Below are positions 1-6,206 of a stretch of 41,749 nucleotides of DNA, piece after piece. Position 1 is the first letter of the stretch. Every line of letters starts with the position of its first letter. Source of the stretch: Acidobacteriota bacterium (GTDB lineage: Bacteria > Acidobacteriota > Terriglobia > Acidiferrales > UBA7541). The notes under the pieces were generated by a model. That model searched no databases. It was not told where the DNA came from and saw only the letters and a program-made list of their open reading frames with translations. The translations under genes were made by a program, and so were the position numbers. The stretch covers positions 9,277-51,025 of the forward strand of contig QHYS01000121.1 in the NCBI GenBank assembly GCA_003223325.1, read 5' to 3'.

Positions 1-564
1 CAGATAATTGCCGAAGCGCGTGACTCGCGTGGTCACTGTCGCTTTCGGGCTGAGGGGCGCCCCAACGCGGGTAATGAAACCTTCTTTGAGGTGGTCGGTT
101 GTGAATACCAGGGTGCTGCCTTCCCATTTCCCGGTCGAAAAGCCTGAAAATTTGTGAGCTGCGTAATCGGGAGGGTGCGGCCGGCCATCCAACCAAACCC
201 TAAAATCCGACCAGTAGGCATGGAAGTGATAATCAACGATCTGCTGTGTGGCGCTATCCAGTTCTGTAGAAATGTAGAGCTGCGCTGGGGCAACACGTAA
301 TCCAATGTCAAAGGAATGAGGTCTGCATATATTTTCCGGCAGATCAAACTGCTCCGGGTGGAAACTCTCTGCTCTTAATCGGCCTGCTTCATTGAGTGGA
401 ATCCCCGTATAGTCGCCAACGTCTCTCCCGTCATTGTAAATCCTGGGCGACCACTCGCCCGTAAGGTCCACCTGGGCCCAGAGCGATCTAGCGGGAAACA
501 CCAGAAACAAGAGCAGAAGAAAATATAAGCCCTTCATCTTCAGGTCGCTCTTTCTGAATCTCAT
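1..564 (-). CDS. Exported protein of unknown function, 3' end cut by window edge
   Basis: The frame is open from an ATG at 564 to the left edge (188 codons), so the C-terminus is missing. AGGAGG sits 8 bases before this ATG, which favours it over the in-frame ATG at 537. The N-terminus has basic residues followed by a hydrophobic stretch (LYFLLLLFLVFPA) ending near LWAQ, a clear signal peptide. The mature part reads DLTGEWSPR, then DYTGIPLNEAGR, RPHSFD, DGRPHPPDYAAH, GFSTGKWEGSTLVFTT and DHLKEGF. This is a pattern I recognise from uncharacterised exported proteins that accompany DUF6152 genes in Acidobacteria and Proteobacteria. The closing segment resembles the C-terminal third of the next gene (605-1522), so the two are probably related. 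It is the last visible gene of a minus-strand series. No biochemical function can be assigned. Confidence 0.75.
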   Translation of the reverse strand, partial: MRFRKSDLKMKGLYFLLLLFLVFPARSLWAQVDLTGEWSPRIYNDGRDVGDYTGIPLNEAGRLRAESFHPEQFDLPENICRPHSFDIGLRVAPAQLYISTELDSATQQIVDYHFHAYWSDFRVWLDGRPHPPDYAAHKFSGFSTGKWEGSTLVFTTDHLKEGFITRVGAPLSPKATVTTRVTRFGNYL

Positions 565-604: not shown

Positions 605-1522
605 TTAGCGTGCTTCATCACCCCGGCAGGGCGTCGGATCCCATCCAGAACCGTCCGGAATCTTCTTGAAGTGCGCATGTGTGATGGAAGGCTCCATGAG
701 ATATTGGGGATCCGTTACCACCGTCGTTACCACAAGCCAAGTCTCACTATCACTACTGTAGGGGTCCGTAAAGCGATCAAAATATTCTTCCATCGTCGCG
801 TTGGCACCGTAAGGAACGCCGTTCTTACGCAGATACCCTGAACGCATTTGCGTGGTTACCACCTTGAGATAACCAGGGACTTCTCCTCCCACCTCTCTCG
901 GACCGCGTCCTACGGCCCCCGTGGCTCCCCCCCCCGTGGCTCCCCCGACGCTTACGTCCCGTATGGGTCCACCACCGCCGGCACGCTGGGAATCGGGTCT
1001 GAATCCCTCCCAAGAGGCTACCGAGTATCCTTGCCATTCAGGTGTTCCGTTCGCGGGTGCTGAGCCGCCGAAATGCAACAGACGAGTCTGAGTTCCGGAA
1101 TCCGTATCAATTCGCAGCGTGGTGTCATCTTGCCAATAAATGTGCAGCCGCCCCGGAACCTGCATGATAGCTGCGGCGCCATACGCCTTGCATTCATTGC
1201 CCTCGGCTTTATCTTTTGCGGGATCCCAGGCATCCGCGACTTTACGGCCATCTGCATTGAGCGGAACAATCACGTAGTCCCCTTTGTCCGGTATAACCAT
1301 GCGGTAGCGCCAATACTCAGTGACAATCGATTCCCAATACCCGGTCAAATCCTTCGGGGCTGCCGCCCGTGGCGCTCTTGTGGCCGGGTTTTGGACCTCA
1401 CCCCGCCCTTGGTCACCAAAACCTTGGGCGCCGAGGTGCCCCGCTAGCACTTGCGCCAATGCTGCCGCAAACAGGAATACCTGGCTGGCCCGCACCAGCG
1501 CAATTCGGTAGGGTATTTTCAT
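605..1522 (-). CDS. Exported protein of unknown function, companion of DUF6152 gene
   Basis: A protein of about 305 residues if translation starts at the ATG at 1522. The frame stays open upstream to a GTG at 1579, but that start would overlap the previous gene and put 19 polar residues before the signal sequence. From 1522 the N-terminus is MKIPYR followed by a hydrophobic segment ending near GHLGAQG, a signal peptide. The mature part opens with DLTGYWES and ends with a segment containing SGYLRKNGVPYG, ATMEEYFDRF and DPQYLMEP, matching the pattern in the gene at 1-564. The middle contains a Gly/Ala/Thr-rich low-complexity linker encoded over a run of nine Cs on the plus strand (927-935). It lies 35 bases downstream of the DUF6152 gene on the same strand and is probably co-transcribed with it. 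Function unknown; probably periplasmic. Confidence 0.75.
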   Translation of the reverse strand: MKIPYRIALVRASQVFLFAAALAQVLAGHLGAQGFGDQGRGEVQNPATRAPRAAAPKDLTGYWESIVTEYWRYRMVIPDKGDYVIVPLNADGRKVADAWDPAKDKAEGNECKAYGAAAIMQVPGRLHIYWQDDTTLRIDTDSGTQTRLLHFGGSAPANGTPEWQGYSVASWEGFRPDSQRAGGGGPIRDVSVGGATGGGATGAVGRGPREVGGEVPGYLKVVTTQMRSGYLRKNGVPYGANATMEEYFDRFTDPYSSDSETWLVVTTVVTDPQYLMEPSITHAHFKKIPDGSGWDPTPCRGDEAR

Positions 1523-1557
1523 TCTTGTCTCTGGCAGAAAGTACGAGCTATACCAGC

Positions 1558-1956
1558 TTACTGAATATTGCCTTCCCACTTAAAGCCATCCGACGGGCGC
1601 TCCACTTTCATCAGTTGCAACCTATGATTCTCAGCAACACGTCCGGGATGGCCCGTAATGACGATCTTGTCGCCAGGTCGGAGCGTCGCACTGGACACAC
1701 CCTTCTCGGTCAACTGCGCAGGCGCGGCCCACTCAATAACCCAGCTTTGTACCTCTCCTTTTTCGTCCGGGGCCTCCACCCTGACGAAGGAATGCGGATT
1801 GCGCCATATGAACTCTTTTAGTGTTCCTTCGATCTTTACGGTTTTGTCGCGGTCATAAACCGAGTAAAAGGCGTGATGGGCGAAGGTCAGACTGCTGCCG
1901 ACTGTCAGAAGTGCTCCGATTCCCAACAAGATTAAGATTGCCAATGTGCGTTTCAT
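1558..1956 (-). CDS. DUF6152 family exported protein
   Basis: 132 residues, starting at an ATG preceded by AGGAG with a 6-base gap. A signal peptide (MKRTLAILILLGIGALL through TFAHH) is followed by the hallmark start of the mature domain, AHHAFYSVYD. A small beta-rich domain follows with IEGTLKEFIWRNPHSF, VIEWAAPAQL and LRPGDKIVITGHPGR. I recognise this layout as DUF6152, a single-domain periplasmic family of unknown function. The HH pair right after the cleavage site and the WRNPH segment are typical of the family. It sits between the MBL-fold gene and two exported companion proteins, all on the minus strand, suggesting one transcript. The metal or ligand it may bind is not known. Confidence 0.85.
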   Translation of the reverse strand: MKRTLAILILLGIGALLTVGSSLTFAHHAFYSVYDRDKTVKIEGTLKEFIWRNPHSFVRVEAPDEKGEVQSWVIEWAAPAQLTEKGVSSATLRPGDKIVITGHPGRVAENHRLQLMKVERPSDGFKWEGNIQ

Positions 1957-2027: not shown

Positions 2028-3200
2028 TTAGTTTCCATGGCTCTGTGAAGTTTCCTGCTTGCCGCTAAGACTCTTGTATGCCGCGTCAATGAACATGTCC
2101 GTCGTCCAGTTGCCCGTAGTGCTGCCATAAATCGGATCGTAATCTCGGGTCGGTTTGGCCGCCTTCACCTGCTCGAGCGTCATGCCCCGCTTGCTCATGT
2201 CCTGCAGGCGGTCTCGAACGATGGTCACCATTTGCTGATAGACAGCCAAGTCGGCGGCGTCGCTAAGCCTTCCATGGCCGGGGATGATCATCGTGCCGCC
2301 TTCCTGGTGGTCCGCCGCGATAACCATCTGCTTAAGGCGATTCAGGCCGTCGAGTACTCCCTGAAGGCTCCCACCGCGCTTCAGGTCGATGATGGGATAT
2401 TCGCTGGGATCGAAAATATCACCCGCGCTAACCACATCGGAGCGGCGAAAAAGTACGAAGCTGTTGCCGTCTGTGTTGGCCGGCTGATGAAAGATCTCCA
2501 CAGCTTCGCCGTTAAAATAGAGGTTCTTCTGGGGTACGGAATACGTATCGTTCGGCCACGCCCCTTCGGGTGTCGCGGCCGCCTGCCCGGTCGGCGTGCT
2601 CATCCGGTCCAGCACTGTTTGAAAGGCAATGATGTAAGCATGAGATGCCGCGACCCGGTCGGCCACGGCGTATCGCTGGGAGTCGGTGGGTACGGGGCGG
2701 CCCGTCTTCCCGATATTTTCGTTGCCGCCGATGTGATCGCCTCTATCGTCGGTATTGATGATGTAGACCAGGGGCCTTTTCGATAAGGGCCGGATCGCCT
2801 CGAGCACCTTATCGCTCATTGATGCCAGCCCGGTGTCGACAAGAAGGATACCGTCCTCCCCCGCCTGCACCGTGACGTTGCCGCCCGCGCCTACCAGCAT
2901 GCTGATATTGCCTTGGACGGGCAGAAGGTGGACCTCCCCGGCGCTGGAGTTCGAGCTTAGCTTGACATTGTTAGGAGGAGCACTCTGGCGACTGCGGCTT
3001 TGGGCTTCCTGAGGGTAAGCGAATTCATACGCCCCAGCGGTCCCCAGCAAAACCATGCTCGCAACGACGCACATCGTCCACGATTTCGATAAGAGAAAAT
3101 CCGCGTTCTTTCTGAACGTCTCTCGATGAGCCAATTTTGTTTCCTTAGTCCCTAGAAAGGCGTATTTATTGCCGTATGATCCACTCACTGCGAATCGCAT
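2028..3200 (-). CDS. Exported MBL-fold protein lacking the Zn1 ligands
   Basis: Up to 390 residues with a metallo-beta-lactamase fold: the opening strand region SMLVGAGGNVTVQAGEDGI, then LLVDTGL, then a metal-motif region. In this family the motif is normally NTHxHxDHxGGN; here residues about 149-156 read NTDDRGDH, so both histidines are replaced (Asp and Arg) while the Asp-His pair remains. The next ligand region, usually AHTDGDS, reads ANTDGNS, so a third His is lost. GDIFD and IIPGHG keep the bridging Asp and the last His. The Zn1 site is therefore gone and the Zn2 site intact. The start is uncertain: the ATG at 3200 lacks a ribosome site and gives a 42-residue leader before the hydrophobic segment near MCVVASMVLLG; a TTG at 3134 has AAGGA seven bases upstream; an ATG at 3074 is also possible. 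An exported hydrolase, lactonase-like enzyme or binding protein is plausible. Confidence 0.8.
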   Translation of the reverse strand: MRFAVSGSYGNKYAFLGTKETKLAHRETFRKNADFLLSKSWTMCVVASMVLLGTAGAYEFAYPQEAQSRSRQSAPPNNVKLSSNSSAGEVHLLPVQGNISMLVGAGGNVTVQAGEDGILLVDTGLASMSDKVLEAIRPLSKRPLVYIINTDDRGDHIGGNENIGKTGRPVPTDSQRYAVADRVAASHAYIIAFQTVLDRMSTPTGQAAATPEGAWPNDTYSVPQKNLYFNGEAVEIFHQPANTDGNSFVLFRRSDVVSAGDIFDPSEYPIIDLKRGGSLQGVLDGLNRLKQMVIAADHQEGGTMIIPGHGRLSDAADLAVYQQMVTIVRDRLQDMSKRGMTLEQVKAAKPTRDYDPIYGSTTGNWTTDMFIDAAYKSLSGKQETSQSHGN

Positions 3201-3220: not shown

Positions 3221-4666
3221 TCACGATCGGTCCCGTTCTTCCATGACCGCCGAATTTGCCTCGGCCACTGTCGTTGTGTTGGCCGCAACGTGGCGGCGCG
3301 TGGCGAGCCAATTCAAGAGCGCAATTACCGCCGTCGCCAGGATCCACCCAAGCTCCTCCCGAGTCGTGTGTGCGAAGAGCACGATCATCAACGCAATGCC
3401 AATTACGGCGAATATCGGACCCAGCGGGAGCCGGTAAGAAGCTAGGCTAGGCGTTTTGCGGCGCAAAACCACCAGCGCTCCGCAAACTAGCCCATACGTT
3501 ATCAGCCGGGATGCTGACGAGAGCACTACGTTCCATCGGAAATTCCCCACCGTAGCGATCGCCCAAAGCAAAGTCGCAAACACGAGAATGGATATGTACG
3601 GAGTTCGGAAACGATTGTGAACCGCGGCGAAAACAGACGGAAGATCGCCTTGCTCCGCCAGGGCAAAGGTCATGCGCGGAACGTGCACCATCTGCGCACT
3701 CAAATAGCCGAACAAGGCCAGAAGCGCGCTGACGGCAATAAACGCGGCTCCGGCGGGTCCTAAGAAAACCTGCGCCGCCATCGCCAGTGGCCGATCGGTT
3801 TGTGCCGGGTCCGGCAGGACGCGGACGACGACAATCTGCACCAGGATGTAAATCAGAGTAACGCTCAAAAAAGCTACGGCCATCGCAAACGGCACGTCTC
3901 GTTGCGGGGCGCGGGCTTCGGACATGGGAACGAGCGCGCCCTCAAAACCGCCGTAGGCAAAGATCAGCACGAGCGATGCGTCGAACCAATCCGCGGCTGT
4001 CGCCACGCGCGGATTTACGGGCGAGACGGCCGGGTGAGCAACGCCATAGAGCACACCGGCGGCCGCAAAAATCAACAGCGGTGCAATCTTGGCGATCGTG
4101 AATGCGGAACTCAGGTGCGCGCCGATCTTCACACCCAAGAGGTTGACGCCGGTGATCACCACCAGAATGGCTGCTGCCAGCAAAGCGCGTTCGAGTGGCC
4201 GTTGCGCCGATGGCCAGAAATAGCCCAGATAAGTGGCGAAAAGATTGATTGCTGCCGCTCCCGCCGTCAGGCGGGACAGCCAATGGAGCCAGGCGACTTC
4301 GAGGGCCAGCAAACGCCCAAAGGCCACCCGTGTATAGAGAAAAGGTCCGCCAGCCTGACGGAATTGCGAGGCCACTTCGGTGAAGCAGCCCATGACAATT
4401 CCGATGCCTGCTGCGGCGACAAGATAGGCGAACGGGCTCTCCCGGCCCAGATCGGCGGCCACAATCGCGGGAAGGCCAAAGATACCGCTGCCGATAACGG
4501 AATTGATCACGAGCGCAGCGAGGCCCCAGCGGCCAATGGCTCTTACGAGGTGCTTTGGTTCGCGTGCGGAGCGATCGACGATCCCCTTAGCCTCTTGCTG
4601 TGTCAGTTCGCGCCGTCCCGGAGGGCAAAGACAAACAGGCTGTTCCCCGAGGCGATGGAGACGCAT
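3221..4666 (-). CDS. APC-superfamily amino acid permease
   Basis: 481 residues with about twelve hydrophobic segments. The first one carries the APC signature VINSVIGSGIFGLPA, where the unwound helix 1 (GSGIF) binds substrate. Later landmarks are FAYGGFEGALVPMSEAR, also typical of the family, and regular membrane segments to the end (LGWILATAVIALLNWLA). Length fits the family. This is an inner-membrane transporter for amino acids or related amines; the substrate cannot be read from sequence. The only ATG is at 4666, which makes the gene overlap the 3' end of the upstream PQQ dehydrogenase by 64 bases and gives a polar leader of about 40 residues. A rarer start just after that gene's stop (around 4600) is possible. 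It ends 20 bases before the first possible start of the MBL gene. Confidence 0.88.
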   Translation of the reverse strand: MRLHRLGEQPVCLCPPGRRELTQQEAKGIVDRSAREPKHLVRAIGRWGLAALVINSVIGSGIFGLPAIVAADLGRESPFAYLVAAAGIGIVMGCFTEVASQFRQAGGPFLYTRVAFGRLLALEVAWLHWLSRLTAGAAAINLFATYLGYFWPSAQRPLERALLAAAILVVITGVNLLGVKIGAHLSSAFTIAKIAPLLIFAAAGVLYGVAHPAVSPVNPRVATAADWFDASLVLIFAYGGFEGALVPMSEARAPQRDVPFAMAVAFLSVTLIYILVQIVVVRVLPDPAQTDRPLAMAAQVFLGPAGAAFIAVSALLALFGYLSAQMVHVPRMTFALAEQGDLPSVFAAVHNRFRTPYISILVFATLLWAIATVGNFRWNVVLSSASRLITYGLVCGALVVLRRKTPSLASYRLPLGPIFAVIGIALMIVLFAHTTREELGWILATAVIALLNWLATRRHVAANTTTVAEANSAVMEERDRS

Positions 4667-6206
4667 TGTTTGCCGTCCAGCTGGTAGCTGATCGGCCCGG
4701 CGATAATTTCACCACCGAGATTCACCTTCCAGAGCAACGCCCCCGTGCGCGCATCGAGCGCCTGGAAATAGCCCTCGCGTCCGCCGGCGAAGAGAAGATC
4801 CGATGCGGTGGTCAGAATCCCGCCGACATTGACGTCGTGCATCTCAAAACTCCACTTCTTTTTTCCGGTGTGGGGATCGAGAGCAATTACGGCGCCGCGA
4901 CCGAGCGCTTCTGTGTAGGTGTTGACGGGACCTTGGCGGGCGCCCGCGGGATTATCGGCGCCGGCAATGGGGCTGGTGTTTGCGCCACCGGTATAGCGCA
5001 GGCCCTCTCTGTAGTCCACATCTACGCCCGTGAAGACCGTCGAGTAGTTTTCCCAAGTGGAGAGATAAAATAAGCCCGTGCGCGGGCTGTAGGACGGCGA
5101 ATACCAGTTCGTTCCGCCTTGAATGCCTGGGAACGTCGAAGCTCCCGGAGGTTGGGGCGTCGGGATCGGGCGCCCATTCGCGTCCAGGCCACTGGCCCAA
5201 TTCACCTTTACGAATGGCCTGCCGGTGAGAAACTTCCCCGTCGTTCGGTCCAAAACGTAAAAGAACCCGTTTCGATTGCCCCAGAGTATCAACTTCCGAG
5301 GACTCCCGTTCCAATCCATATTCGCGAGAACGGGAATCTGCACCGAGTCATAATCGTAAGGGTCGTTTGGGGTGAACTGGAAATACCACTTCAGCTTTCC
5401 GGTGTCGGGCTCAAGCGCCAGGACGCAATCGGTATAGAGATTGTCGCCGGGCCGTTGCCCGGATTCCAATCCGGACCCGGATTGCCGGTACCCCAATAGG
5501 TCAGGTTTAGATCGGGATCGTAGGAGCCGGTAAGCCAGACGGCGGCGCTCCCGTGCTTCCAGTCGTCTCCGTGCCAGGTTTCGTGACCGGGCTCGCCGGG
5601 CTCCGGAATGGTGTTGAAGCGCCAAGCTTCTTTGCCGTTGTGCGCTTCGTAGGCGGCGATGAAGCCACGAATGCCATATTCACCGCCGGCCACGCCGACG
5701 ATTACTTTGTCTTTCACCACCAGCGGCGCCATGGTCATGGCGTAACCCGCGGCCGCGTCGGCTAGCTTGTTATTCCAAATGGCGTGCCCGTTTCTGGCGT
5801 CCACGGCCACGAGATGAGCATCGACGGTGGCCATGAACAGTGTATCGCCCAGGATGGCCAGACCGCGATTCACGATCCCGCAGCAGGGGCGGGAGTCGGG
5901 AGACGTAGCGTAATGGTAGACCCAGAATACGCGCCCCGTTTTGGCGTCGAGCGCCACCACATCGTTGGGCGACTGCGTAAGGTACATGATCCCGTCGACC
6001 ACCAGCGGCGTGGTCTCGAATTTCTGCAGCGACTGCGCCTGAAACACCCACTGCAGCTCCAGATTTTTCACGTTCGCCGCATTGATCTGTTGGAGCGCGC
6101 TGTAGCGCTGGCTCATGTAACTGCCGGAGTAGGTCAGCCAGTTTTGTGGTTCCTCGCGCGCACGAAGCAGCCGCTCGGAGATCACATCGAAAATTTTCTG
6201 AATCAT
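4603..6206 (-). pseudogene. PQQ-dependent dehydrogenase, split by a one-base frameshift
   Basis: Two overlapping frames make up one quinoprotein dehydrogenase of about 534 residues. The first runs from 6206 and carries EPQNWLTYSG, SQRYS, the adjacent cysteine pair in SRPCCG (about residue 108), repeated beta-propeller strands (VVALDAKTGRVFW, LVAVDARNGHAIW) and TGNPGPDWNPG. The second resumes with QRPGDNLYT, LALEPDTGKLKW, TPNDPYDYD, GGTNWYSPSY and GYFQALDARTGALLW to the stop at 4603. Reading passes from one to the other if a single base is restored at CCC 5458-5460 (GGG to GGGG on the coding strand). This is a contraction in a short homopolymer, so it may be a sequencing error or a true inactivation. 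The family oxidises alcohols with PQQ in the periplasm and passes electrons to cytochrome c. No signal peptide precedes the domain. Its ATG overlaps the cytochrome stop (ATGA). Confidence 0.85.

Follow-up and report, generated by a model that had tools for sequence, protein, structure and literature searches.

The metallo-beta-lactamase (MBL) superfamily as a whole tolerates departure from its canonical di-zinc motif, and single-site MBLs (CphA and chlorothalonil dehalogenase, Chd), MBLs with arginine at position 118 (B3-RQK) and MBL domains lacking the canonical ligands (Flv1/Flv2) are already known. Class B2 enzymes (CphA, Sfh-I), which carry Cys221, work with Zn2 alone and are called mono-zinc in PDB titles. 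Excerpts of the published work describe the catalytic zinc of Chd (PDB 6UXU) as mononuclear, with Asp116, His117, His257, Asn216 and a water as ligands (PMC12784990), B3-RQK (SPR-1, CSR-1) as a natural monophyletic MBL group with Arg118 in the Zn1 site (PMC10318434), and the cyanobacterial Flv1/Flv2 as MBL-domain proteins without the canonical metal ligands (PMC4390876).

We analysed a stretch of 41,749 nucleotides from an Acidobacteriota bacterium (contig QHYS01000121.1), hereafter the window, in which the gene at 2028-3200 encodes an MBL-fold protein, probably secreted, with the Zn1 histidines all gone and the Zn2 site intact. B3-RQK differs in that its HRH/DQK pattern in the excerpted source keeps His116 and His196 and changes Zn2 (Q121, K263). 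The original prediction had likened the protein to class B2. A Zn2-only enzyme of the MBL fold does exist (6UXU), but class B2 is the weaker analogue: the alignment shows it with His118 and His196 retained and with N116 and R121, whereas the window protein carries D, R, N and H at positions 116, 118, 196 and 121 and, unlike class B2, retains both His121 and Asp221.

Cells with Flv1/Flv2 hold canonical Flv3/Flv4, and Flv2/Flv4 heterodimers are reported in the excerpted source (PMC4390876), whereas the genome of the window has no canonical family member. Its only two family members (100% and 65% identity to the window protein; next match 39%) both lack the Zn1 histidines. More distant canonical MBLs, for example L003, are present in this genome. 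Since it holds no intact copy within the family, a role as helper of an active, canonical family paralogue was rejected.

As far as the listings of our literature searches show, the family and its gene cassette are new, and so are the fusions and the repeated loss of ligands, chiefly on the Zn1 side. Searches on MBL-fold pseudoenzymes and on Acidobacteria with MBL or DUF6152 gave nothing on the family among the matches listed (titles and abstract starts), and a search on DUF6152 found no paper in the literature collection used.

The window protein and its metal-ligand motifs

The motifs DDRGDH, NTDGNS, GDIFD and PGHG were confirmed from the DNA as first noted (Table 1). The stretch INTDDRGDHIGG, read from the DNA, holds D151, R153, D155 and H156 at the positions of His116, His118, Asp120 and His121 in beta-lactamase numbering. 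An N-terminal hydrophobic, signal-like segment was recognised by eye rather than with a prediction program.

With 34.4 bits against Pfam Lactamase_B (gathering cut-off 22.7) the protein belongs to the MBL superfamily, and DDRGDH and N242 place it outside the canonical di-zinc subset, marked by HxHxDH and the third Zn1 histidine. It scored under the cut-off of all four NCBIfam models that it matched. The class B core model NF012229 gave 32.5 bits against a cut-off of 100, outside the true metallo-beta-lactamases (B1/B2/B3). The nearest named NCBIfam models were those of the SoxH-related quinoprotein relay metallohydrolases, and a role as a SoxH-like PQQ relay partner was rejected on scores far below the cut-offs (TIGR04558, 39.9 bits versus 300; TIGR04559, 50.7 versus 280).

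Table 1. Cassette genes and metal-ligand motifs in the window
Feature	Position (strand)	Length	Remarks
Zn1-less MBL-fold protein	2028..3200 (-)	390 aa	MBL domain at about residues 90-380
DDRGDH	2733..2750 (-)		D151 and R153 replace His116 and His118 (Zn1); D155 and H156 keep Asp120 and His121 (Zn2)
NTDGNS	2460..2477 (-)		N242 replaces His196 (Zn1); context PANTDGNSF
GDIFD	2409..2423 (-)		D261, the bridging/Zn2 Asp (Asp/Cys221 position), retained; context AGDIFDPS
PGHG	2271..2282 (-)		H309, His263 of Zn2, retained; context IPGHGR
DUF6152 protein	1558..1956 (-)	132 aa	Second cassette gene; Pfam PF19649, 85 bits
upA, orphan protein	605..1579 (-)	324 aa	Third cassette gene; conserved near MBL
upB, orphan protein	1..564 (-)	first 188 aa in window	Fourth cassette gene; whole gene G000:C98:8980-9840

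Recurrence of the Zn1 loss in a clade

Homologues were sought in the genome of the window and 61 genomes close to it, in sets of 396 genomes from the phylum, 399 from the class, 193 from a second class and 89 from the family, in 11 genomes from the family to which G059 belongs, and in the GTDB species contigs. The search gave 221 ORF matches, of which 9 spanning fewer than 230 residues were dropped. The other 212 yielded 170 distinct domains, namely 130 family rows (BLAST score of at least 197 against the window protein) and 40 lower-scoring outgroup rows. The family rows are the best matches to the window protein and not a random sample. The tree was built by a quick method, with SH-aLRT support only, from the family rows and 10 of the outgroup rows, and the motif columns were excluded. 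A gap at a ligand column, found in 4 rows, was counted as a loss.

The window protein falls in a 12-member clade (support 100) from nine genomes of two classes (G000, G001, G003, G059 and G453 of its own class; G795, G840, G841 and G855 of the second). All three Zn1 histidines are absent and the four Zn2 ligands present in 12/12 members, so that the claim of a selective loss holds for the clade as for the window protein. Searching for homologues, as had been proposed, thus showed that the substitution pattern recurs as a clade and is not a single-sequence oddity. Two partial members (L046, L048), among the rows dropped for their span, both lack His196 and have the Zn2-side motifs GDIFDP and PGHGR.

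In the sister clade (16 rows, support 100) His116 and His196 are missing from 16/16 rows, and His118 is present in 3. All four Zn2 ligands are retained in 7 rows, D120E is the sole Zn2 change in 4, and the site is altered in other ways in 5. One of its branches, formed by two genes of one genome (L067 and L086), reads IWEYNPH, with six of the seven metal ligands changed. The two clades together comprise 28 rows (union support 95). The pattern would fit descent from a di-zinc hydrolase, with His116 and His196 lost in the ancestor of this 28-member superclade and His118 additionally gone in the 12-member clade.

A conserved gene cassette and upB-MBL fusions

The window genes stand on one strand in the order MBL, DUF6152, upA and upB, the last running past the window edge, and the DUF6152 profile match starts 75 bases beyond the MBL match. 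Profiles of DUF6152, upA and upB were run on all loci. The usual family order is upB-MBL-(DUF6152)-upA, and that of the window clade is MBL-(DUF6152)-upA-upB in 11/12 members, of which L002 and L045 have no DUF6152; the locus of the remaining member, L044, reaches no further than DUF6152.

Counting neighbours on the same strand and no more than 1.6 kb away, an arrangement that the window locus shows as well, upB was found beside 120 of the 130 family rows, upA beside 90 and at least one of them beside 125, all lower bounds because the flank is only about 1.5 kb long at many loci. No upA or upB match scoring above 60 was found anywhere in the loci of the 40 outgroup rows, which served as control. 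The DUF6152 neighbourhood stressed by the original prediction does adjoin the window gene, but upA and upB are more constant partners: DUF6152 is present at 58/130 rows against 125/130 for upA or upB. Damage to the ligands does not free the MBL gene from this neighbourhood, since upA or upB lies beside 50/51 Zn1-intact and 75/79 Zn1-damaged rows.

Twenty-six ORFs (L103, L104, L151, L146 and 22 others) join upB and MBL without an intervening stop. Zn1 is intact in 8 of these fusions, 2 of which have a Zn2 change, and damaged in 18. The genome of the window carries two MBL family members, two upA and two upB genes, and these sit together at the same two sites. A single draw of 396 phylum genomes had upB (E 1e-30 or better) in 7, exactly the 7 that hold the MBL family (best E 1.1e-81 or better; next genome 6.1e-51).

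Pfam searches up to E 1 gave no match for upA or for two whole upB relatives, and the piece of upB in the window had one sub-threshold match (YiaAB, E 0.1). PDB sequences gave no upB match up to E 1, and the AlphaFold2 model of upB was unusable (pLDDT 38.9). In a Bryobacteraceae MAG (L049, 3929-4962), upB matches extend across three ORFs while the adjoining MBL is open. A canonical family member with adjoining upA and upB was found in a record labelled Gammaproteobacteria (L047), either a transfer from phylum to phylum or a binning error.

Predicted fold and a proposed single-metal site

An AlphaFold2 model of residues 85-390, made with the 28-row alignment, reached pLDDT 85.9 and pTM 0.86. 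Foldseek matched the model to 499 PDB entries with E values of 0.001 or better. The best 50 of the 499 were lactamases, alkylsulfatases, PqsE and Chd, which share the alpha-beta/beta-alpha MBL fold. VIA-align placed Chd first (6uxu, Z 27.6, rmsd 2.5 A, 263 residues), followed by 8d2z (Z 25.4) and then beta-lactamases at about 22. Foldseek itself puts alkylsulfatases and 8d2z at the top and 6uxu 27th, and with the family profile both 8d2z and the class B2 enzymes come out ahead of 6uxu. The class B2 structure 1x8i was matched both by the family profile (E 1e-15) and by fold (Z 21.4). Used singly, the window protein matched 6UXU alone among PDB sequences at E 0.001. In the structural alignments the two are 18-21% identical. 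The Burkholderia cenocepacia protein 8d2z has the MBL fold with a different loss, its aligned SHYHAVR being without the Zn2-side Asp-His.

The Chd ligands Asp116, His117, His257 and Asn216 align to D155, H156, H309 and D261 of the window protein; the Asp and the two His align exactly, and the fourth ligand is Asn in Chd and Asp here. Like the window protein, Chd is also without His116 and His196 (Ser and Gln), and a Zn2-only MBL hydrolase with the same lost pair therefore exists. Chd keeps His114 at position 118, where the window protein has Arg153.

We favour, with a probability of about one half, the reading that the gene encodes a functional, probably secreted protein with no more than one metal, bound at the intact Zn2 site of D155, H156, D261 and H309. 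The protein would work as part of a four-gene cassette of MBL, DUF6152, upA and upB, with upB, to which it is fused in relatives, as its closest partner. The precedent of Chd inclines us to a single Zn2 metal, with a charge from Arg153, in a protein that would form a complex with upB. By this analogy the metal would most likely polarise one substrate or water, and the arginine replacing His118 may supply positive charge in the former Zn1 space. Counted against this reading are the incomplete Zn2 retention in the sister clade, the IWEYNPH branch, the loss of His118, and the modest difference in number between Zn1 and Zn2 events described below.

Ligand loss across the family

Among the 130 family rows, the Zn1 ligands His116, His118 and His196 are kept in 56, 59 and 81, and the Zn2 ligands Asp120, His121, Asp221 and His263 in 112, 116, 121 and 118. 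In the outgroup (n=40), His116 is canonical in 39/40 rows and the other six positions in 40/40. Both sites are complete in 45 family rows and damaged in 27; Zn1 alone is damaged in 52 and Zn2 alone in 6. The fewest changes on the tree were 18, 24 and 11 for H116, H118 and H196, and 13, 10, 8 and 10 for D120, H121, D221 and H263. These counts carry no direction by themselves, and loss is inferred from the canonical outgroup. Any Zn1 ligand changed 21 times and any Zn2 ligand 17 times, or 15 with D120E allowed, so the bias towards Zn1 is strong in rows (52 versus 6) and moderate in events. A tree-aware test of Zn1 against Zn2 damage found 11 pairs, too few to be decisive (median p 0.25).

Zn2 ligands have also been lost in further lineages of the family, which makes complete loss of metal a live alternative for the window protein. 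Its MBL domain would then be a structural or binding subunit of an upB/upA/DUF6152 assembly, a pseudoenzyme whose Zn2 residues survive only because they belong to the fold or because descent is recent. Branches that lost Zn2 ligands stay in the cassette, with upA or upB near 25/27 rows that lost ligands of both sites, and are under purifying selection; the L067/L086 pair, nearly ligand-free, has a dN/dS of 0.13 with six of seven ligands changed, which suggests that the fold can persist without metal. The prevalence of Zn1 damage among the upB-MBL fusions (18/26) points the same way. So does Zn2 retention where at least two of the three Zn1 ligands are missing (75 rows): at 0.79-0.91 it is no better than that of many non-ligand columns equally conserved in canonical members. 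Against this, the four Zn2 ligands are invariant in 12/12 members of the window clade, although pairs within it differ by up to dN 0.27. We place the metal-free role next in line, because other branches went that way, and consider it a real possibility, though less probable than a single retained metal.

Aspartate and asparagine are able to bind metals, and D151, N242 or other side chains could stand in for the lost histidines in a remodelled two-metal site. Aspartate does occupy position 116 in 6/12 clade members, and a combination of Asp118 with His196 (24/26 Asp118 rows) that is common elsewhere in the family looks remodelled there. The window clade itself, however, offers no consistent ligand set, with D, G, S or N at position 116, Arg at 118 in 11/12 (Ser in 1/12) and N, S or T at 196, and we regard a second metal as improbable.

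Arg118 coincides with an absent His196 in 19/19 rows; a tree-aware test of position 118 against 196 found 3 pairs, too few to judge. The Asp118 rows (for example L173, L175 and L176) form what looks like a second remodelled Zn1 type, mostly NTSxDxDH, with Ser116 in 15/26 and 17 changes of the Asp118 state on the tree.

Purifying selection

Substitution rates were estimated by the Nei-Gojobori method for pairs with dS below 2, and the window clade was set beside 17 fully canonical rows, out of 45, and a further 25 eroded rows, all of our own choosing. The ratio dN/dS was 0.09-0.32 within the window clade (65 of 66 pairs with dS below 2), and 0.25 at a dS of 0.23 between the window protein and its nearest relative (L038). 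The chosen canonical members gave 0.06-0.27 and the other eroded members 0.06-0.34. The window gene is therefore under purifying selection and not decaying, in line with the prediction of a retained gene. Constraint in its clade is no tighter than among the canonical members.

Decay of a functionless duplicate might have been suspected from the large paralogue families (39 matches in G059) and the graded loss of ligands. These ratios, the conserved cassette and a genome without an intact family copy all argue against it, and we consider it very improbable; the open frame adds only weak evidence, because the ORFs were picked as open frames. Nothing was found in favour of a sequencing or assembly error confined to one MAG, and the recurrence of the same pattern in nine genomes from different assemblies refutes it; neither error nor chance accounts for the substitutions.

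A possible series of sites in the family

A broader reading, tentative and on balance doubtful, is that upB-MBL-(DUF6152)-upA forms a previously undescribed module, probably secreted, that occurs chiefly in Acidobacteria and reaches 17 or more MBL copies in one genome. A di-zinc hydrolase would repeatedly have turned into single-site or metal-free partners while the partnership with upB was kept, and the window branch would be a natural Zn2-only design with arginine standing in for Zn1. If so, the family would be a natural series within one gene context, from intact di-zinc sites through two remodelled kinds of Zn1, one with Asp and a retained His196 and the other with Arg and no His196, to sites that have lost most of their ligands. 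It would allow direct tests of the role of the first metal in MBLs and of the conversion of an enzyme fold into a binding partner, and would offer a starting point for understanding DUF6152 and two families of orphan proteins in Acidobacteria.

Expansion of the family is pronounced in several genomes. G059 has 39 matches (E 0.001), with 17 places at 1e-44 or better; G454 gave 62 first-look candidates and G373 55, and G453, which like G454 belongs to the family of G059, likewise has very many.

Genes upstream of the cassette

Upstream of the MBL gene, at a distance of 1.4 kb, is a PQQ dehydrogenase. The upstream genes (the PQQ piece and a permease) are common to the window and a congener (L216) but not to the family: among 37 loci flanked by 3.5 kb on either side, PQQ was found in 1, a permease in 1 and cytochrome c in 0. 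A TonB receptor, present at 7 of these 37 well-flanked loci, was rejected as a fixed partner. The PQQ dehydrogenase of the window (4603-6206, minus strand) consists of two overlapping ORFs in different frames, one matching profile positions 1-257 and the other the profile from 256, and this split indicates a frameshift, either genuine or made by the assembly.
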